This document shows positions 1,955 to 36,239 of a stretch of DNA of 41,622 nt, piece after piece. The DNA lies in assembly GCF_004217095.1 (NCBI RefSeq), contig NZ_SHKO01000006.1:1-41622 (forward strand), read 5' to 3'. Every line of letters begins with the position of its first letter. The first letter of the stretch is position 1. The notes under the pieces are model-generated. The model saw only the letters and a list, made by a program, of their open reading frames with translations. It searched no databases and was not told the DNA's origin. This DNA comes from Advenella incenata. GTDB taxonomy: Bacteria > Pseudomonadota > Gammaproteobacteria > Burkholderiales > Burkholderiaceae_B. The translations under genes and the position numbers were made by a program.

Positions 1955-3232
1955 CTATGCTCTAACGGTTAAAACTTCATCCCAGGACGTTGTATAACTT
2001 TGAGTTTTGCGCTCTTGTCTCATAAACCATTGTTCTTTGTTATGGATACCCGCGCTGGCAGCTTTGACTGTCCCTCGTCCGAATCGCTTGTTAAGTACGT
2101 CTACCGTTTCCATTAATGCCCTGCTTTCTTCTACTGATTCAGCCTCGCTAAAAAGATCGCCTTGGATCTTTAGCGCTGGCTCAATGTCAAATAGCATTAC
2201 CCCCGCTTTTGAATAATTAAAGCCAGGACGAAATATTTTATTCAGGCAGGACAATGCAGTATGAATCATCGCCGCAGTGTCTGAAGTTGCACCCGAAGGG
2301 AAATAAGCAATCAGACTATTGGAATATTGTTTGTCTTTTCTAAATGGGCTTGTCCTGATAAATACTTGTATACCGCCAGCAATTGATTCTTGCGCTCGTA
2401 ATTTTTTCGCTGCAATGGCGGTAAATTCTGATATTGCCTCGGCTAATTGGGATTGTGTAGTGACAAGTGAGCCAAAGGAACGGGAAGTAATTATTTGCTT
2501 TTTGGGCGTCGTGTCCGGCTCTAGCTCGATGCGCGAAATACCGCGTAGCTCCTGAATGGTTTTCCCCAGGACAATAGAAAATTCATGCCGTGCTACTTCC
2601 GGATCTAGTTTAGCGAGATCCAGCACAGTATGAATACCCATTTGGTACAGTCGTTTTGATATCTGGCGCCCTACCCCCCAAACCTCCTTTACATCAATAT
2701 GGCGCATCTCATGGGCTAGTTCTTGGCGTGTTAACGAGGTTAAGTCACAGACGCCGTTCCACCGATTTTGTTTTTTGGCTAAGTGGTTAGCGAATTTCGC
2801 CAAAGTACGAGTTGGCCCACTTCCCACGCATGTGGGAATCCCAACGTTTCGCATGACATCAGCGCGAATCTGTTGACCATATTTTGTTAAATCATCACCA
2901 AAATTTGAGAGCGTCAAAAAACATTCATCCACGGAATACACCAGTTGATCAGCCGAAAATCGACCTATGATTTCCATCATTCTGTCTGAGAGGTCTTGAT
3001 ATAACGGGAAATTTGCGGAAAGCCCTATAAGCCCTGCTGAGTCAACTAAATGTTTTATTTTGAACCATGGATCACCCATTGCAATGCCTAACGCTTTTGC
3101 TTCATCGCTGCGAGCGATGGCGCAGCCGTCGTTGGATGACAAAACAATAACGGGCTTGCCTTTAAGGGATGGTCGAAATACACGTTCACAGCTCACGTAA
3201 AACGCATTGCCGTCAATCAGCAGAAATATCAT
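1955..3232 (-). CDS. umuC: UmuC-type DNA polymerase V catalytic subunit
   Basis: This is a Y-family translesion polymerase subunit of about 425 residues. It starts [19 protein letters not shown], with catalytic Asp7 in motif I, and YSVDECFL carries the second acidic pair (Asp102, Glu103). An HhH region, a little-finger domain and a DUF4113-like tail ([10 protein letters not shown]...[10 protein letters not shown]) complete it. The ATG at 3232 overlaps the umuD stop as ATGA, a translational coupling. A 15-residue upstream extension exists but would overlap umuD. Plasmid homologues are MucB, ImpB and RumB. With UmuD' it should copy past lesions under SOS control. Confidence 0.95.
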
Positions 3233-3651
3233 AGTGTGGACTTGATAATATAGGTGACGACTCCCCATATCGCCCACTCCTGGCCCTGGACAGGAACGAT
3301 ATCTGGATAGGTGACATTTTCTGCTCGTAGTTTGATAATGCCATTTTTTTTAAAGAGCCGCTTCACCGTAACATCGCCATTAATTTCAGCGATCACAATA
3401 TGGTTATGCCTGGGCTCGATCGAGCGATCGACAATGACATGATCCCCATCGTCAATGCCTGCATCTTTCATGCTGAATCCTTTGATGCACATGAAATAGG
3501 TGCTGACCGGATTCTTAACAAGAATATCCCCTATGTTTATTCTGTTTACGGCCAAATCCGCAGCTGGCGAGGGGAAGCCTGCCGGCGTCTTACTCAAAAC
3601 CTGTTGTATGGCCGGGGCTTCAGCCTCAATAAGTTGGCAGTCGATTATCAT
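3229..3651 (-). CDS. umuD: UmuD-type SOS mutagenesis protein (S24 peptidase fold)
   Basis: From ATG 3651 the protein has 140 residues, and its key residues fall at the E. coli UmuD numbers: Ser60 in GFSMKD and Lys97 in VTVKRL. Its self-cleavage site is Ala24-Gly25 in [11 protein letters not shown] (E. coli has Cys-Gly). This agreement fixes the start; a longer form beginning at 3693 is unlikely. RecA-stimulated autocleavage gives UmuD', which joins UmuC. A LexA box lies 12-27 bases upstream of the start. The ribosome binding site is weak. Confidence 0.95.
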
Positions 3652-3662
3652 AATAAATACCA

Positions 3663-3678
3663 CTGTATAAACATACAG
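3663..3678 (-). promoter_or_regulatory. LexA box controlling umuDC
   Basis: CTGTATAAACATACAG matches the beta/gamma-proteobacterial SOS box CTGT-N8-ACAG perfectly. It overlaps the likely -10 of the leftward umuDC promoter, with a candidate -35 TTGAGG upstream, so LexA bound here would block transcription. It is the only such box I found in the window. Confidence 0.9.
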
Positions 3679-3753
3679 TATTTTATACCTCAAAATTTAG
3701 TTTGGCACGGTAAAGAATTGCGGCCGTAACAAATGAGGCGATACCCGGGCATG

Positions 3754-7562: not shown

Positions 7563-7579
7563 GTAAACGATTCTGTAAA
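7563..7579 (-). promoter_or_regulatory. Two-unit TTTAC array after trfA
   Basis: Minus-strand GTTTACAGAATCGTTTAC has two TTTAC units 12 bp apart. The same 18-base string occurs, apart from its first base, in the par promoter at 32852-32869. It lacks the third unit and an obvious -10, so it may be a relic or a KorA-like control site facing trfA and oriV. Confidence 0.6.
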
Positions 7580-8077: not shown

Positions 8078-8540
8078 CAGAAACCCTTTCGCCTAACCCT
8101 CCGGTCGCCAAGGCTCCCTTCGCCCTTTGCTTCGCAAAGCCTTTTAATTCAAGTCCCGCTAAAGCGGGAAATATGAACCCTCACCCCAACACTGAGCTGC
8201 GCTGGTAGCAACAAATAAACATGAAAGGCTATGGCCGCGGGAACCGTGCCGGTTCCCCTGTCCTCCTTTCGCTTCGCTACAGTCGCGGCCTCGACCCCTT
8301 ATGTGAAAACCTGCGGTTTTCCCCGCAAGCGGCACCCCTTTCCCTTCGGTTCTGCAATAAGAGGGGCATACGACAGGTTTAAAAGTGTCGTCTCGTTTGT
8401 GTAGCGGGCTTGTGTGGGCTTTTTTTTGAAGTCTGAAGGGTAAGGTATGTAAAGCAAATTATCTTCAAACGTCATGATTAAGTTTGAAGTACGATTTTAT
8501 CAAGAGATCACAGCGGTTTAAATATTCAATAAATGAGTAT
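8078..8540. other. Hairpin-rich non-coding region downstream of oriV
   Basis: No convincing ORF was found. Several perfect hairpins occur in a row: CTTTGC-TTC-GCAAAG, TCCCGC-TAAA-GCGGGA, GGGAACC-gtgcc-GGTTCCC nested in a GGCCGCG...CGCGGCC pair, GAAAACC-tgc-GGTTTTC, and CGACA...TGTCG. The base composition is more GC-rich than its neighbours and C-rich on the plus strand. This is compatible with a single-strand initiation site or a structured RNA, but I cannot assign one. Confidence 0.5.
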
Positions 8541-8545
8541 ATTAA

Positions 8546-8586
8546 TTTACAAAACAGTTTACTTTTAAGTTTACTTTTGCTATAAT
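8546..8586 (+). promoter_or_regulatory. TTTAC-array promoter of the 8.6-kb membrane operon
   Basis: TTTAC occurs at 8546, 8558 and 8570, exactly 12 bp apart and in the same direction. The middle unit is the -35 (TTTACT 8558-8563) and TATAAT (8581-8586) is the -10, with a 17-bp spacer. The element closely matches those before stbB and the ssb operon, so all should answer to one regulator, proposed here to be the triple KorA-like protein at 34904-35545. Confidence 0.85.
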
Positions 8587-8628: not shown

Positions 8629-9162
8629 ATGAGCAAAGACAACTACTCTTTCAGTTCGAATAAATTTGTTGGGCCACCGGCTCCTTTTAGCTATGTCGCT
8701 GTTTCATGTGCACAGACTATTGCTAAAGTCGGAATTTTCATTTTCATTGCTACAGTTGTGATCTTATCAATAGTTGAGTTTGGGCCTGGTATAGCTAATT
8801 TTTTAGCAAATACATATTCAGAATTTTTAAATTTTGTTGGTTCTGGCGGGTATGTTTGGATTTGCTTCTGTCTGGGCTTATTTGCTGCTTCTGTATTTTT
8901 CTGGGGTATATGCGTTGGCAATAAATTAAGTTGGGAGTTACCAATTTTACCGTCTATTTGTATTGGTCTGGTTTGTATATTCTGCTGGCTTTTGTGCGCA
9001 CTAGCCGTCTCTGAAGTATTGGGAGCATTTAAAGTCTTATCCGAGCCCACACCTTTTACCACTGCTGTTTTTATATTAATTTGGTTGCCTGGAGTCTGCG
9101 GTTTTACTATGTTATTGGCCCAGTTTATTGATATTTTCACCCAACCAATATTCAAGGTTTAG
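8629..9162 (+). CDS. Four-helix membrane protein, unknown
   Basis: The product has 177 residues with hydrophobic segments at about 28-52, 76-98, 107-130 and 140-165 and short polar loops. No motif is recognised. The ATG follows GCAGGAGTCAAAC. It is the first gene after the TTTAC-array promoter, so it should be co-regulated with the transfer genes. A role in surface exclusion or host adaptation would be a guess. Confidence 0.65.
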   Translation: MSKDNYSFSSNKFVGPPAPFSYVAVSCAQTIAKVGIFIFIATVVILSIVEFGPGIANFLANTYSEFLNFVGSGGYVWICFCLGLFAASVFFWGICVGNKLSWELPILPSICIGLVCIFCWLLCALAVSEVLGAFKVLSEPTPFTTAVFILIWLPGVCGFTMLLAQFIDIFTQPIFKV

Positions 9163-23106: not shown

Positions 23107-23751
23107 TTAGTTAAGAAAAAAATTAAGCATCATTGATACTGATTGCTTGGTTTTGGTAAGTCGTGACGAAGTTTCTCCACGCGAAACTGAAACCTTTTTG
23201 ACTTTCACAACTGCCGATTTATTTGCATTTGCTAGAGGGATCACTTTGCCCTTCTCGTTTTTGGGTGCTTCTGTGTTGGATGCTGTTTTTACGCTTAATA
23301 CATCATTTACATACCTTGCGACGTCTGGAACGGAAGTTCCCCAGGCATGCTTGCCACTGTAATAACAAGACAACGCAGCGTGGGTTGCTGTATAGCCAGT
23401 GGAATTTTCTTGATAACCAGCGGATAAGGCTGATGCATAGCAGTCTTTGAAAATCTGATGCGCAGCAATTACGTTATTGCAGACATCAAATCCTTTAGTT
23501 AGGTCGTCCCACCCTAATCTGGCGAAATGCGTTTTGTTGACCTGGCCTTTTCCAATTGAGAAGTTATAGCCACTTTGTTGTAAGTAATTTGCTGTAGCTA
23601 CAGCGTCATCGAGGTTTTGCGGCTGACGTACCAACCTATTACGAACAACTCCAATAGCAAATGGATTGTTCGATGATTCAACATGGAATATCTGTTGCAT
23701 CACTGGTGCATTTAATGCGTTCTGGCAGTCAGGTGGTAGATCAACACTCAT
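23107..23751 (-). CDS. virB1: VirB1-type lytic transglycosylase
   Basis: The 214-residue protein has an SLT/lysozyme-like domain: VMQQIFHVESSNNPFAIGVV with catalytic Glu25, YNFSIGKGQVN, ALSCYYSGKHAWG and YVNDVL. No signal peptide is seen. It would open peptidoglycan for the secretion channel. The basic tail (KKVSVSRGETSSR) contains the translated 17-bp element at 23171-23187. It is the first gene of the transfer operon. Confidence 0.93.
   Translation of the reverse strand: MSVDLPPDCQNALNAPVMQQIFHVESSNNPFAIGVVRNRLVRQPQNLDDAVATANYLQQSGYNFSIGKGQVNKTHFARLGWDDLTKGFDVCNNVIAAHQIFKDCYASALSAGYQENSTGYTATHAALSCYYSGKHAWGTSVPDVARYVNDVLSVKTASNTEAPKNEKGKVIPLANANKSAVVKVKKVSVSRGETSSRLTKTKQSVSMMLNFFLN
23171..23187 (+). 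repeat. 17-bp dispersed element, copy 3
   Basis: Exact GTTTCTCCACGCGAAAC in the 3' end of virB1, encoding VSRGET in the same frame as copy 1 does in virB9. Confidence 0.9.
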
Positions 23752-23778: not shown

Positions 23779-23831
23779 ATTATCTCTTGTTTTTGGCTAA
23801 AAGTAAACGAAAAAGTAAACTGATATGTAAA
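23779..23831 (-). promoter_or_regulatory. TTTAC-array promoter of the virB operon
   Basis: Minus-strand TTTAC units lie at 23803-23807, 23815-23819 and 23827-23831, exactly 12 bp apart. The proximal one is the -35 (TTTACT) of a promoter with a 17-bp spacer and -10 GATAAT (23779-23784), 28 bases before virB1. It is the single obvious promoter for the whole transfer operon. Confidence 0.85.
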
Positions 23832-24961: not shown

Positions 24962-25002
24962 ATTCTAATTTTAGTAAATGAAAAAGTAAACTGTTTTGTA
25001 AA
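24962..25002 (-). promoter_or_regulatory. TTTAC-array promoter of the stbB-like operon
   Basis: Minus-strand TTTAC units lie at 24974, 24986 and 24998 (lower coordinates), 12 bp apart. The middle unit is the -35 (TTTACT) and TAGAAT (24962-24967) is the -10, spacer 17. The distal half is identical to those before 8629 and the ssb operon. Confidence 0.85.
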
Positions 25003-25690: not shown

Positions 25691-25707
25691 GTTTCTCCAC
25701 GCGAAAC
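25691..25707 (+). repeat. 17-bp dispersed element, copy 5
   Basis: Exact GTTTCTCCACGCGAAAC, abutting the stop codon of the TraK-like gene (its outer G is the last base of TAG) and 16 bases before the SRAP start. Confidence 0.9.
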
Positions 25708-26234
25708 TAATTATCTCGCATTTCCTTTAATTGTTCTTCTTGCGATTTTCCGAGAAACGCTGCCAACCTTTCTTTGTGTGTCCTGTTATCGCTGCTTGCT
25801 GGCAATTCTGAGCTAGAAGGGTTGTTTTTACTTGAATCAGATGAAATTGATTTCGGTAGGGGAGAATTAGCAGAACCTGGCAGATTTACGCTCTGGAAAT
25901 CTGCTTTCGCCTCATTTTTAATATCACCAGTAATTAACGGTTCAACTTCAAGTGTGTATGGCGAAGTTTGGGGCGCACCAGTTTTTGGTACATGAGGATC
26001 GTTTTCCGTGGCTTTTGATTCTAATGTGTTGGTATTGATATTTTCTTTTAGCCATTGATAGATGACTGTTCTACCAACCTTAATTTCCAGAAAATGCACA
26101 AACTCAACAATCTGTTGCTTGGTGTAGCCACTCTTAAGCAGATCGATGATTTGTGTTTGGATGGCGAATAGCGCAGTGCTCGATTTGGGTAAATGGCTTG
26201 ATTTGAACTCTTGGAGCTTTTGGTCGTAATCCAT
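25707..26234 (-). CDS. TraK-like oriT-binding protein (tentative)
   Basis: The 175-residue protein has an HTH-like N-terminal domain (residues 20-65: IIDLLKSGYTKQQIVEFVHFL, VGRTVIYQWL) resembling the pattern of IncP TraK (a Gly-Tyr turn, then a Tyr/Phe helix). A long low-complexity Ser/Pro/Lys tail (residues 70-175) follows. IncP TraK binds the oriT leader next to its own gene. Here four or more 18-bp direct repeats lie just upstream (26267-26450), the expected site. Confidence 0.6.
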   Translation of the reverse strand: MDYDQKLQEFKSSHLPKSSTALFAIQTQIIDLLKSGYTKQQIVEFVHFLEIKVGRTVIYQWLKENINTNTLESKATENDPHVPKTGAPQTSPYTLEVEPLITGDIKNEAKADFQSVNLPGSANSPLPKSISSDSSKNNPSSSELPASSDNRTHKERLAAFLGKSQEEQLKEMRDN

Positions 26235-26460
26235 TTTTTTCCAATAAATCCGTAAATATACATATACGTTCGATTTTATCCATATTTGTGCGAATAAATC
26301 CAGATGTTCATTAATTTTAAGAAAAATGGATATTTTTTAATCCTATGTCGTCCGTAAAATTGTTGTTTATTCCGCAGATTGTACAAATTTATCCATAATA
26401 CATACATATTCGTACAGATTAATCCGGAATAATCCGGTTTCGTACAGTTTCAGTAGAGAA
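26235..26460. repeat. Direct repeats in the oriT leader
   Basis: An AT-rich stretch carries 18-bp direct repeats of the form YGTACRAATTTATCCATA: CGTTCGATTTTATCCATA (26267), TGTGCGAATAAATCCAGA (26287), TGTACAAATTTATCCATA (26380) and CGTACAGATTAATCCGGA (26411). There is a half copy (CGTACAGTTT, 26441), and AATAAATCCG at 26243 may be a further relic. They sit between the TraK-like start and the oriT hairpins and should bind a relaxosome protein. Promoters for the divergent traK-like and mobC genes must also lie here but are not clear. Confidence 0.7.
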
Positions 26461-26596
26461 AAGCTGCTTTTTATGTCTTTGCATAAAAAGGCACTATTGG
26501 TATGTTTACACTTCGGCTACGCCTTGGTAAAATACCAGTGCCAAAGGGGAGTCCCTTTGAAACCCTAAAGGCTACGCCTTTACCCTTGAAACTATA
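26461..26596. other. Probable oriT: hairpin cluster before mobC
   Basis: Consecutive perfect stems are CTTTTTATG/CATAAAAAG (26467-26490), GCACT...GGTAT/ATACC-AGTGC (26491-26541, 3-base bulge), CAAAGGG-GAGT-CCCTTTG (26542-26559) and AAAGG-ctacg-CCTTT near 26570. Position between the divergent TraK-like and mobC/relaxase genes makes this the transfer origin. I do not see a textbook nic sequence and do not assign the cleavage site. Confidence 0.75.
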
Positions 26597-26613
26597 GTTT
26601 CGCGTGGAGAAAC
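26597..26613 (-). repeat. 17-bp dispersed element, copy 6; supplies the mobC RBS
   Basis: Plus strand reads GTTTCGCGTGGAGAAAC. Its GGAGA (26606-26610) is the only Shine-Dalgarno sequence for the TTG start of mobC 7 bases later, so a protein bound here or its mRNA copy could directly control relaxosome synthesis. Confidence 0.9.
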
Positions 26614-32775: not shown

Positions 32776-32816
32776 TTTACAAATTAATTTACTATTGGAT
32801 TTACTATATCATTTAC
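32776..32816. promoter_or_regulatory. Four-unit TTTAC array in the trbM-parA divergent region
   Basis: TTTAC at 32776, 32788, 32800 and 32812 keeps an exact 12-bp period on the plus strand. It covers the likely leftward trbM promoter (minus-strand TATAGT near 32805). It is the longest array on the plasmid and could also act as a centromere-like site beside parAB. Confidence 0.8.
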
Positions 32817-32852
32817 TTTTGTTGCTTAAAAGTAATTGTTTGCGTAAATCAA

Positions 32853-32893
32853 TTTACAGAATCGTTTACTTTATGGTTTACTGTAGGTATTGC
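32853..32893 (+). promoter_or_regulatory. TTTAC-array promoter of the parA-parB-korA operon
   Basis: TTTAC at 32853, 32865 and 32877, 12 bp apart. The middle unit is a -35 (TTTACT); a weak -10 (TATTGC, 32888-32893) follows after 17 bp. This is the promoter expected to be autoregulated by the operon's own ParB/KorA-like products. Confidence 0.78.
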
Positions 32894-32926
32894 ATTTAAC
32901 CTAGAAAACCATCAAAAGGATTGTCC

Positions 32927-33730
32927 ATGAAGATTTTTTCCGTTGCGAATCAAAAGGGCGGCGTTGGTAAAACTACACTTTCAACTCAACTGGCTTTTGC
33001 GGCTATAGAGCAGGGAATAAAAACACTTTTTATCGACCTAGACACGCAAGGCAATGCGACTCTAACATTTGCAGGGCAAAGCCAAATCGCAAATGATGAC
33101 GGTTATGAAGGCGCAAAGGCCAGCAGGCTATTTACAGCAGCTGGTGAAGACAGCCAGCCAATTGAAGTGAATGAAACCCTGTCAATCATTCCATGTGATA
33201 ACGATCTTTTTGACGTGATCCGTGGTCGGATTGGAACGGAAATAATTGACGATGAAGTACTGATGGCTCATTTCATCAAAAGCGTTAAACAATTTGATAG
33301 CCAATTTGAGCTATGCATTATTGACACGCCACCGGCCCTGGGGGTCGTCCTGCAGTGCGCTTTGGCAGTGTCCGATATTGTGATCAGCCCGCTTTCCATT
33401 TCTGTTTACGATATGGAAGGGACAGAACAGCTATTGGATACCGTGAATTACATCCGGGAAAATATAAACAAGAATCTTAGGCATGGCGGCATCCTGCTTA
33501 TGAAAACCAATACCCGCTCCAATATCGAAAAAGAAGCCATTGAATCGCTTAAAGGCCAATATGGCTCACTTGTGCTGCCAATGCAGCTGCCCGAGCGGAT
33601 TGCCGTCAAAATGGCCGTAGCAATGGGTCAAGCCGTTTGGCATAAGCCCCGAGGCTCGTCACATAACAAAGCCGCCATCGAATGGAAGAATGTTTGCGAT
33701 GCCATCATCAATAACATCGTCAGTCACTAA
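32927..33730 (+). CDS. parA: ParA/IncC partition ATPase
   Basis: From ATG 32927 (after AAAGGA) the product has 267 residues with deviant Walker A KGGVGKT (residues 10-16), DTQGNATL, CIIDTPPALG and SPLSISVYDMEG. No N-terminal DNA-binding domain is present, as in IncC2 or chromosomal ParA. With ParB and its site it partitions the plasmid. A TTG two codons upstream is a possible alternative start. Confidence 0.95.
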   Translation: MKIFSVANQKGGVGKTTLSTQLAFAAIEQGIKTLFIDLDTQGNATLTFAGQSQIANDDGYEGAKASRLFTAAGEDSQPIEVNETLSIIPCDNDLFDVIRGRIGTEIIDDEVLMAHFIKSVKQFDSQFELCIIDTPPALGVVLQCALAVSDIVISPLSISVYDMEGTEQLLDTVNYIRENINKNLRHGGILLMKTNTRSNIEKEAIESLKGQYGSLVLPMQLPERIAVKMAVAMGQAVWHKPRGSSHNKAAIEWKNVCDAIINNIVSH

Positions 33731-33750: not shown

Positions 33751-34878
33751 ATGAACGCAAAAAACCCACTGTTGGCCAAAACTCAAAATCTTGGATCGAA
33801 GATTAAGAATTTTTCATCAGAACAGTCTAAAACGCCTGATGGCCTGGTTGAGCTCGAAAAAATTATTGTTCAGGAACAAGTACGTAAAGAATTTGAAGAC
33901 GGTGATAACTCTTTACAAGAAATGGCCGAGGACATTGCGATCAGAGGCGTTCTGCAGCCAATTTTGATCCGGCCGTCTGCCGGCGGGAAATTTATTCTTG
34001 TGGCTGGTGAACGTCGGTTTCGCGCCGCGAAACTTGCTGGCCTAAAAACCATCCCGGCTCTGATTAAGGAAATGACCGAGGAAGAAGCGGACGAAGCCCA
34101 ATTCATCGAAAATATCCACCGGAAGAACCTGACTCTGCAGGAACAGGCAACACGGATTCAGCGCGACCTTGATAAATTCGGCGGTGACGTTGACGCGGTT
34201 CTGAAAAAATATAACAAAGAAAAAACCGGCAAAGCCTGGGTTTCCAAAATGCTTAGCCTTTTGGATCTACCCGAGCAAACGCAGCGCCTGATTGACGAGA
34301 ATATTACCGCTGACAAAGAGGTCATCAATTCCGTCAAACAAATCGAAAAGCATGACCCCGATAAAGCAAAAGAGGTAGTGGATACCCTTAAAAACTCACG
34401 AAAAGACGGTGCTGGAAAAGCAAGGGAAATCGCGTCAAGTGCTAAAGTGGCAACAAAACGTAAAAAAACTCAGAACGGCACGGAAAAAATATCAGATAAT
34501 AAGCAAGATGACTCATTAAGTATTGCAGCGCCCCGGAATCGGGATGCAGAGCAACCGTCCGAGGTCGTATCCATTTTTCCTGATGCTATCAAGCCAACAG
34601 TTGATAATGTTGGCGCGCAGGAGAATACCCACAATGTGGAAGATATGACTTTGGAAGATTTACAGAAGATGGAACCGGCTTTAAAAGAACATTTTGAATC
34701 AGGTTCGACGGCTACAGATTGGACAAGCGATGTTCTTAAGGGTTTAAAATCGGGGACTTTTGGGCATACCGGCCAGCCAGCCGCCAATTTGGCGGCATAT
34801 GCACAGGGTTTTTCAAAGAATACTGACAAACTTGATCTTGCTTTAACACTCCAAGCTATTCAGGAGGTTAAAGAATAG
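33751..34878 (+). CDS. parB: ParB/KorB-family partition and regulatory protein
   Basis: The 375-residue protein has the ParB CTPase domain (LQPILIRPSAGGKFILVAGERR FRAAKL, then ENIHRKNLTLQEQA), an HTH (DAVLKKYNKEKTGKAWVSKML) and a long linker. It has a C-terminal domain (residues 300-375) unlike the usual dimerisation domain. In IncP plasmids KorB does both partition and global repression from many dispersed sites. The dispersed GTTTC...GAAAC 17-mers here are the natural candidates for its binding sites. Confidence 0.92.
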   Translation: MNAKNPLLAKTQNLGSKIKNFSSEQSKTPDGLVELEKIIVQEQVRKEFEDGDNSLQEMAEDIAIRGVLQPILIRPSAGGKFILVAGERRFRAAKLAGLKTIPALIKEMTEEEADEAQFIENIHRKNLTLQEQATRIQRDLDKFGGDVDAVLKKYNKEKTGKAWVSKMLSLLDLPEQTQRLIDENITADKEVINSVKQIEKHDPDKAKEVVDTLKNSRKDGAGKAREIASSAKVATKRKKTQNGTEKISDNKQDDSLSIAAPRNRDAEQPSEVVSIFPDAIKPTVDNVGAQENTHNVEDMTLEDLQKMEPALKEHFESGSTATDWTSDVLKGLKSGTFGHTGQPAANLAAYAQGFSKNTDKLDLALTLQAIQEVKE

Positions 34879-34903: not shown

Positions 34904-35545
34904 GTGCCAAAACAGGGAAGTGCAAAAAAATTGACACACGACGAGTTTCAAAGTGCTTTGATCTATACCAGCATCCGTGAAAATAGCCGGGTAATCGCCT
35001 ATGATTACCTGGTTAATGGCATTCCCATTTCCAACGTAGCCGAAAAATACAGCACATCAAAACAGAACGTTTTCAACATGACCAAAAGGGTGTTGGAGGG
35101 GTTCCAAAAATACAAAGACGCCCTGACCGCCGTTCATGCGCTGACAAAACAGGAGTTTGATGACGCTTTGCCCTATTCAACTCAGCTGATAGAAATTTCT
35201 ATTAAGTATGCTTATTTGCATCTGGTGGAAGGTCAGCCGTTGATTAAAATTGCTCAGGAATTTGATACCACACGACAGAACGTTTATGGCGCTGCCAAAC
35301 GTGTTATTGAGGCCCACGGACGGTATCTGGATAGTCGGAAATTGAACGAACAGATCGATAAATATAAGATGACTCAAGAGCAATTCGAGGCATTGGACAT
35401 GAATCTTAAAGATAACCAGTCTCAGATTGCACAGCGTTATTTCGTACAGGGAAAGCCAATCGAGCAAGTAGCAACAGAAAGCCGGGTGACAAATTATTGG
35501 GCTTATAGCGTTATTGCAAAAATCATAGAGGAAAAGAAATTATAA
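34904..35545 (+). CDS. KorA-like regulator with three tandem TrfB-type HTH units
   Basis: The 213-residue protein starts at GTG after GCGAGG. Three units align: residues 10-66, 80-137 and 156-209, each with LT/MTxxxF, Y...LVxG/FVQG and an HTH. Units 1 and 2 share T-S/T-K/R-QNV in the recognition helix; unit 3 has diverged (VTNYWAYSV). IncP KorA has a single unit and acts as a dimer on GTTTAGCTAAAC. A triple-unit protein fits direct repeats of TTTAC every 12 bp, found at six places here. The fold match is from memory; the DNA pairing is inference. Confidence 0.8.
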   Translation: MPKQGSAKKLTHDEFQSALIYTSIRENSRVIAYDYLVNGIPISNVAEKYSTSKQNVFNMTKRVLEGFQKYKDALTAVHALTKQEFDDALPYSTQLIEISIKYAYLHLVEGQPLIKIAQEFDTTRQNVYGAAKRVIEAHGRYLDSRKLNEQIDKYKMTQEQFEALDMNLKDNQSQIAQRYFVQGKPIEQVATESRVTNYWAYSVIAKIIEEKKL

Positions 35546-35716: not shown

Positions 35717-35801
35717 GCCCGGGTGGTGAAATTGGTAGACGCAGGGGATTCAAAATCCCCCGCCGCAAGGCGTGCCGGTTCGATTCCGGCCCCGGGCACC
35801 A
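35717..35801 (+). tRNA. tRNA-Leu (anticodon CAA)
   Basis: Acceptor GCCCGGG (35717-35723) pairs with CCCGGGC (35791-35797), followed by A and an encoded CCA. The anticodon stem GGGGA/TCCCC closes loop TTCAAAA, giving anticodon CAA for UUG. The D-arm has TGGTAGAC and the T-loop is GTTCGATTCC. The long variable arm (class II) is present and all stems look intact. It has a promoter upstream and a terminator at 35855, so it is probably expressed. A tRNA gene on a 41-kb conjugative plasmid is unusual. Confidence 0.95.
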
Positions 35802-36198: not shown

Positions 36199-36239
36199 TT
36201 TACAAAACAGTTTACTTTTGAGTTTATTATATTTATAAT
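36199..36239 (+). promoter_or_regulatory. TTTAC-array promoter of the ssb operon
   Basis: TTTAC at 36199 and 36211 and TTTAT at 36223 keep the 12-bp period. The middle unit is the -35 (TTTACT), the spacer is 17 bp and the -10 is TATAAT (36234-36239). The upstream half is identical to that of the promoters at 8546 and 24962. Confidence 0.85.

Follow-up and report, generated by a model that had tools for sequence, protein, structure and literature searches.

The 213-residue product of a gene in a par operon is built from three linked KorA-type helix-turn-helix (HTH) units, and the window, by which we mean the whole 41,622-nucleotide stretch analysed here, carries six arrays of TTTAC half-sites that, within each array, run in one direction at a 12-bp period. 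The contig is taken as a plasmid because it holds trfA, par, virB4-like, virB11-like and virD4-like genes, stbB and mobC. With three units in the protein and oriented arrays at promoters that include the one of its own operon, the protein is the best candidate reader of the arrays. With a probability of roughly two in three, we propose that it acts as the plasmid's global, self-controlling repressor, working in the manner of ArdK on the TTTAC arrays through its linked units. Most likely, the arrays are a real and well-placed operator set and the three-unit protein is their cognate repressor.

Architecture of the three-unit protein

Searched as a whole, the protein matches the Pfam family KORA (PF16509) over three stretches with an E value of 9.1e-16 (58.3 bits), and a related HTH family, UPF0122, also exceeds its cut-off over two stretches (31.8 against 22.7 bits). 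Unit 1, cut out and searched alone, still matches KORA above the cut-off (E 4.8e-6, 27.1 bits; cut-off 26.7), and units 2 and 3 match at 5.8e-4 and 1.8e-3, both below it. A unit profile built without unit 3 locates that unit at an i-E of 1.4e-5; units 1 and 2 were part of the profile, and their own scores with it are therefore given by construction. The boundaries obtained in this way (Table 1) agree with the three TrfB/KorA-type units at residues 10–66, 80–137 and 156–209 that the initial annotation had proposed.

In pairwise comparison, units 1 and 2 share 42% identity with each other and 30 and 36% with ArdK, and unit 1 is also 42% identical to a single-unit protein of M. bovoculi. Unit 3 shares 24% identity with each of its neighbours. 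At the position of the DNA-contacting pair, unit 1 has K-Q, unit 2 R-Q and unit 3 N-Y, so the earlier suggestion that the third unit has diverged holds. Among PDB entries the protein matches ArdK best, though weakly (E 0.21), in an ungapped alignment that sets ArdK R45-Q46 against R124-Q125. When a profile of the three-unit proteins is the query, the PDB order becomes UPF0122 (0.023), KorA (0.025) and ArdK (0.081).

The units are joined by linkers of about 8 and about 13 residues, with 2 residues after unit 3, which leaves no space for a dimerisation domain of the KorA type; in KorA, this domain has 31 residues, according to the available text of PMC4889941. A C-terminal dimerisation domain after the HTH is thus absent from the 213-residue protein. 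The KORA profile by itself is indecisive on this point, as its matches end at or before position 60 in four of seven single-unit cousins too, and one genome match reached position 70 of 84. The gene lies behind parA and parB, as it does in the cousins, and directly behind it the plasmid contig carries a tRNA-Leu (CAA) gene (35717–35801).

Table 1. Features of the window that bear on the three-unit protein and its candidate operators.
Feature	Position	Strand	Remark
Gene of three-unit KorA-like protein	34904..35545	+	GTG start, 213 aa
Unit 1, about residues 9–70	34928..35113	+	contact pair K53-Q54 at 35060–35065
Unit 2, about residues 79–141	35138..35326	+	contact pair R124-Q125 at 35273–35278
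Unit 3, about residues 155–211	35366..35536	+	N197-Y198 (35492–35497) in place of the contact pair
parA, first gene of operon	32921..33730	+	start more likely at the ATG at 32927
parB/korB-like gene	33751..34878	+	protein probably uses separate GTTTC-N7-GAAAC sites
Array of 3 TTTAC, period 12	8546..8574	+	site 2 fits the -35 of the 8629 operon
Array of 3 TTTAC	23803..23831	-	site 3 fits the -35 before ORF 23107–23751, first of the virB cluster
Array of 3 TTTAC	24974..25002	-	site 2 fits the -35 of stbB
Array of 4 TTTAC	32776..32816	+	upstream of parA
Array of 3 TTTAC	32853..32881	+	upstream of parA; no consensus promoter found
Array TTTAC-TTTAC-TTTAT	36199..36227	+	site 2 fits the -35 of the small-ORF/ssb operon
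Lone pair right behind trfA stop	7563..7579	-	19 bp in common with array 32853
Lone pair TTTAC-N7-TTTAC	1768		within CDS 1456–1941
GTTTC-N7-GAAAC palindromes	16193, 20584, 23171, 25022, 25691, 26597, 31983, 34017, 35832

Arrays of TTTAC before plasmid genes

The window contains TTTAC-N7-TTTAC 14 times, compared with a mean of 0.11 in 100 shuffles, which confirms the six places with direct TTTAC at an exact 12-bp period that had been noticed at first. A scan over k-mers and periods that presupposes no motif likewise gives TTTAC with a 12-bp period the top rank in the window; the plasmids of N. eutropha and M. bovoculi do not show this ranking. The 14 pairs group into two lone pairs and six arrays, five of which have three sites and one, at 32776, four. 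In the 4.9-Mb genome, the triple pattern TTTAC-N7-TTTAC-N7-TTTA has seven matches, all on this 41.6-kb contig, and the reversed triple pattern, searched as a control in the whole genome, has none. Pairs are less confined (14 of 20 genome-wide lie on the contig), and those elsewhere are regarded as background because the reversed pair pattern gives 23 matches genome-wide. A host regulator as reader was ruled out, given that triple arrays occur on this contig only.

The arrays are not a satellite repeat, a candidate rejected on the make-up of the repeat units: between neighbouring units the TTTAC columns are kept in 12–13 of 13 comparisons and the other seven, spacer columns in 1–7. When the first three sites of each array are compared, site 1 reads TYAATTTACA in all six, and sites 2 and 3 read RTTTACT, except that site 3 is TTTAT in one array and TTTAC in the other five. 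Self-similarity by lag is too weak a measure for single promoters, the arrays of the window included (P 0.007 to 0.78). Across 399 genomes of the order, 17 contain the triple pattern, the genome of the window among them; in the other 16, the matches listed are mostly plain tandem repeats, in which the spacer repeats too. A scan of viral sequences for the array pattern returned at least 120 stretches, with one match each among those listed.

All six arrays point in the direction of the gene downstream, and for five of them the distance from array to ATG is 54, 51, 46, 45 and 48 bp (the array at 32776, which lies further from parA, is left out). A promoter scan of the five regions places an array TTTACT as -35 hexamer with a 17-bp spacer in four, at 8558, 23807, 24990 and 36211, and finds none at the parA region. 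Promoter presence alone is not beyond chance, because the five regions hold 2, 1, 1, 0 and 2 promoter-like hits and shuffles give means of 0.9, 0.4, 0.6, 1.2 and 0.7. It is most improbable that the arrays are mere promoter boxes or AT-rich repeats arisen by chance. The fit of TTTACT to the -35 at four promoters is what such boxes would give, but one promoter requires just one -35, and the arrays have three sites in a fixed 12-bp phase; their restriction to this contig and the conserved TYAA before site 1 are far beyond chance.

Behind the arrays stand parA-parB-korA itself, the virB cluster, stbB, the operon of ssb and that at 8629. Two arrays precede parA-parB-korA, that is, the operon of the three-unit protein. 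In the virB cluster, VirB4-, VirB11- and VirD4-like ORFs follow the first ORF, 23107–23751, which has no Pfam match at 1e-5; the array at 36199 precedes a 43-aa ORF and then ssb; and the 8629 operon has no family match. In the proposed scheme, the KORA HTH units would read same-direction TTTAC half-sites over the -35 region, where the bound three-unit protein would exclude RNA polymerase and so may repress the promoters that carry arrays. Five promoter regions of the window offer little sign of a palindromic operator, with the best inverted repeat at P 0.11 to 0.94. By eye, an inverted half-site stands opposite site 1 of array 32853 (GTAAAT-CA-ATTTAC, 32842–32857). Two further stretches of the contig were noted: 8090–8351, behind trfA, is perhaps the replication origin, with no annotated gene in matching records and 83–88% identity to two Advenella plasmids, and 1955–3693 encodes a UmuD/UmuC-like pair (Peptidase_S24 and IMS domains), such as is also annotated on the N. 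eutropha plasmid.

Two other plasmid proteins could be considered as readers. The ParB/KorB-like protein might take TTTAC for half of a KorB-type operator: KorB sites of RK2 include TTTAGC, and the parB gene shares its operon with the three-unit gene. Against this, the window has nine copies of a separate palindrome, GTTTC-N7-GAAAC, which are probably the ParB sites, and several of the cousin plasmids likewise carry their own sets of repeated palindromes; on the strength of these palindromes, in the window and in the cousins, ParB was rejected as the array reader, a role we consider very improbable. The stbB array has one of these palindromes at a distance of about 20 bp.

Among alternative proteins, the strongest competitor is the StbA-like protein (25707–26234, minus strand), which we regard as an unlikely reader. 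It would read the TTTAC arrays as StbA of R388 reads 9-bp direct repeats; the R388 protein binds arrays of direct repeats in the promoter region of stb and probably at further promoters, since its motif is found again elsewhere on R388, as described in the available part of PMC3098194. One TTTAC array stands directly before stbB, and the StbA-like ORF weakly resembles proteins in the stbA position of N. stercoris (E 1.6e-4) and N. eutropha (0.009) within a set of seven; this ORF, which together with the repeats next to it takes up 25707–26460, has no Pfam or NCBIfam match. Set against these points, 6 of the 31 GGATWWA heptamers of the window, a motif chosen after the stretch had been read, fall within the 230 bp between an oriT-like block and the StbA-like gene, all on the minus strand. 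That interval has no TTTAC array, and two arrays precede the korA operon. By eye, the oriT-like block (26480–26600) is similar to the DNA that precedes mobC on the Nitrosomonas plasmids. The three-unit protein remains our preferred reader, one that probably binds the arrays.

Relatives in Nitrosomonas and a possible fit of units to sites

Plasmids on which parA, parB and korA-like genes are neighbours were reached by a ParB search; another such search, over 398 genomes, returned too many chromosomal ParB proteins to be of use. Single-unit cousins on such plasmids are 96–141 residues long. Three-unit relatives are encoded on p2 of N. eutropha (220 residues) and on a plasmid of N. stercoris (207 residues), and a protein of this type is also encoded on contigs from two further N. 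eutropha strains; in the genus of genome G1142, three of 85 genomes have such relatives. Among the loci scanned with the unit profile, more than one unit per ORF occurs only in copies of the window gene and at the Nitrosomonas loci. The profile gave a single weak match (E 0.0036) in 132 loci (L077–L208). PF16509 itself has matches in 18 of 399 genomes of the order, six over the cut-off, and in seven of 369 genomes of the class when the limit is set at E 1e-5, which excludes even the genome of the window. Searches with the window protein alone against genome contigs, and of phages and viral contigs, returned nothing useful.

The Nitrosomonas proteins stand behind parB like the gene in the window and are 23–25% identical to its product. 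Their degenerate unit is the middle one, whereas that of the window protein is the third. In the N. eutropha C91 sequence, K-Q is retained by units 1 and 3 and replaced by I-E in the middle unit, which the unit profile barely recognises in the Nitrosomonas proteins (i-E 5 to 110). The N. eutropha relatives score below the cut-off for KORA and above that for UPF0122.

The question of a 12-bp or a 24-bp repeat was set before the Nitrosomonas promoters were examined; a previous scan of N. eutropha for exact repeats had revealed no such pattern. A matrix built from the 19 sites of the window alone was applied to the Nitrosomonas plasmids. The motif AGTnTACTTTT was shaped after both plasmids had been viewed, and the window-only matrix is therefore the test that counts. 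Of all positions, the matrix ranks the parA promoter first, with 15.0 in N. eutropha (next 14.2) and 14.4 in N. stercoris (next 13.6). The best pair of half-sites there has an offset of 23, not 24. The N. eutropha pair is first (25.7; next 24.1), the N. stercoris pair (24.6) is level with a pair away from parA, and the best pairs in eight other plasmid sequences, some of them partial, score 16.5–18.8 (G+C 0.40–0.65 versus 0.46–0.50). At the virB1 promoters the repeat is one of 24 bp and its sites are weaker (P 0.013 and 0.14 by self-similarity), and the parA repeat is not significant by self-similarity alone. As the Nitrosomonas promoters are homologous, their evidence amounts to about one event. 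The close runners-up among the pairs, the UPF0122 matches and the near-chance promoter scans lower our confidence in the proposed repressor. In six parA promoters of single-unit cousins, an inverted repeat reaches P < 0.05 in three, and a direct repeat with P < 0.4 is found in none. The Nitrosomonas parA promoters also have a second repeat, AGACCTA..GG-like, 30 bp apart.

How the protein might occupy an array can be pictured in two ways. In one, the units in a single chain would each lie about 12 bp further along the DNA, replacing two subunits joined at their C termini, so that one polypeptide might occupy several sites. Units 1 and 2, which keep the K/R-Q contact pair of ArdK, would supply most of the specificity, and the degenerate unit 3 would bind weakly or make contacts between molecules. 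A bolder extension, which we think less likely than not, is a ruler, in which each KORA unit would take its own 12-bp step and the units with a contact pair would set which half-sites stay. For the window, this possible reading has units 1 and 2 live on sites every 12 bp; for Nitrosomonas, it would, with the same reserve, have units 1 and 3 live on sites about 24 bp apart, the middle step being blank. The number of units may thus be linked to the spacing of the sites. Against one unit per site stands the conservation of site 3 despite the missing contact pair in unit 3.

That observation, together with the one array of four sites, speaks for the other arrangement, to which we give an appreciable chance, somewhat short of even: the three-unit protein binds, not with one unit on each site, but as a dimer (for example through unit 3) or as several molecules with two units each. 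The presence of three sites in five of the six arrays argues against it, as does Nitrosomonas, where the degenerate middle unit accompanies the wider 23-bp spacing. Either arrangement has the three-unit protein on the arrays.

Comparison with known plasmid regulators

KorA-type plasmid repressors usually act as pairs of one-unit proteins, and the gene of KorA of RK2/RP4, which exerts both global and self control, adjoins parA/parB. KorA/TrfB (PDB 2W7N, 5CM3) has the same HTH domain as the units of the window protein. It acts, however, as a symmetric dimer on the palindrome GTTTAGCTAAAC, contacted through R48 and Q53, whereas the window has direct repeats and a protein with no space for a dimerisation domain (KorA as given in the available text of PMC4889941). 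The initial annotation had likened TTTAC to half of the KorA operator; it is indeed one change from TTTAG of KorA, but equally one from TTGAC of ArdK, and ArdK is the better comparison in that the sites run in one direction, have an almost invariant C and lie at the -35.

ArdK of R388 (PDB 7BBQ, 7BCA, 7BCB) has a KORA-type HTH and direct repeats at the -35 of several promoters, that of ssb included. Its asymmetric dimer uses R45 and Q46 to bind TTGACA-N4-TTGACA at the -35, and the repeat spacers in its branch are 3 to 6 bp, according to the available part of PMC9723621. A 6-bp spacer with 6-bp arms would give a 12-bp period. The half-site TTGACA is close to TTTACT of the window, and at the R45-Q46 position unit 2 has R-Q and unit 1 has K-Q. 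As opposed to ArdK, which has one unit, 102 residues, a dimerisation domain and two repeats at 10 bp, the window protein has three linked units, no space for such a domain and three repeats at 12 bp. The suggestion of a new operator logic falls away as far as the reading of direct repeats is concerned, as the single-unit ArdK is already described as doing so at the -35 (PMC9723621, available part). What is new is the covalent three-unit form with triple sites, together with the Nitrosomonas cousin and its wider spacing; a search of open-access papers found no multi-unit KorA protein or triple sites.

StbA of R388 is similar in being a plasmid DNA-binding protein that acts on direct-repeat arrays with its motif in several promoters, but its stbDRs are 9-bp repeats spaced by 2 bp (PMC3098194, available part), and a StbA-like gene accompanied by different repeats is present in the window itself. 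KorA and ArdK form a well-studied pair for one fold that reads inverted or direct repeats. If the proposal is true, the single-chain form would remove the symmetry of the dimer and make spacing readable from the number and health of the units, and, for a plasmid of the conjugative type (par, virB, stb, ssb), such a global repressor would be uncommon.
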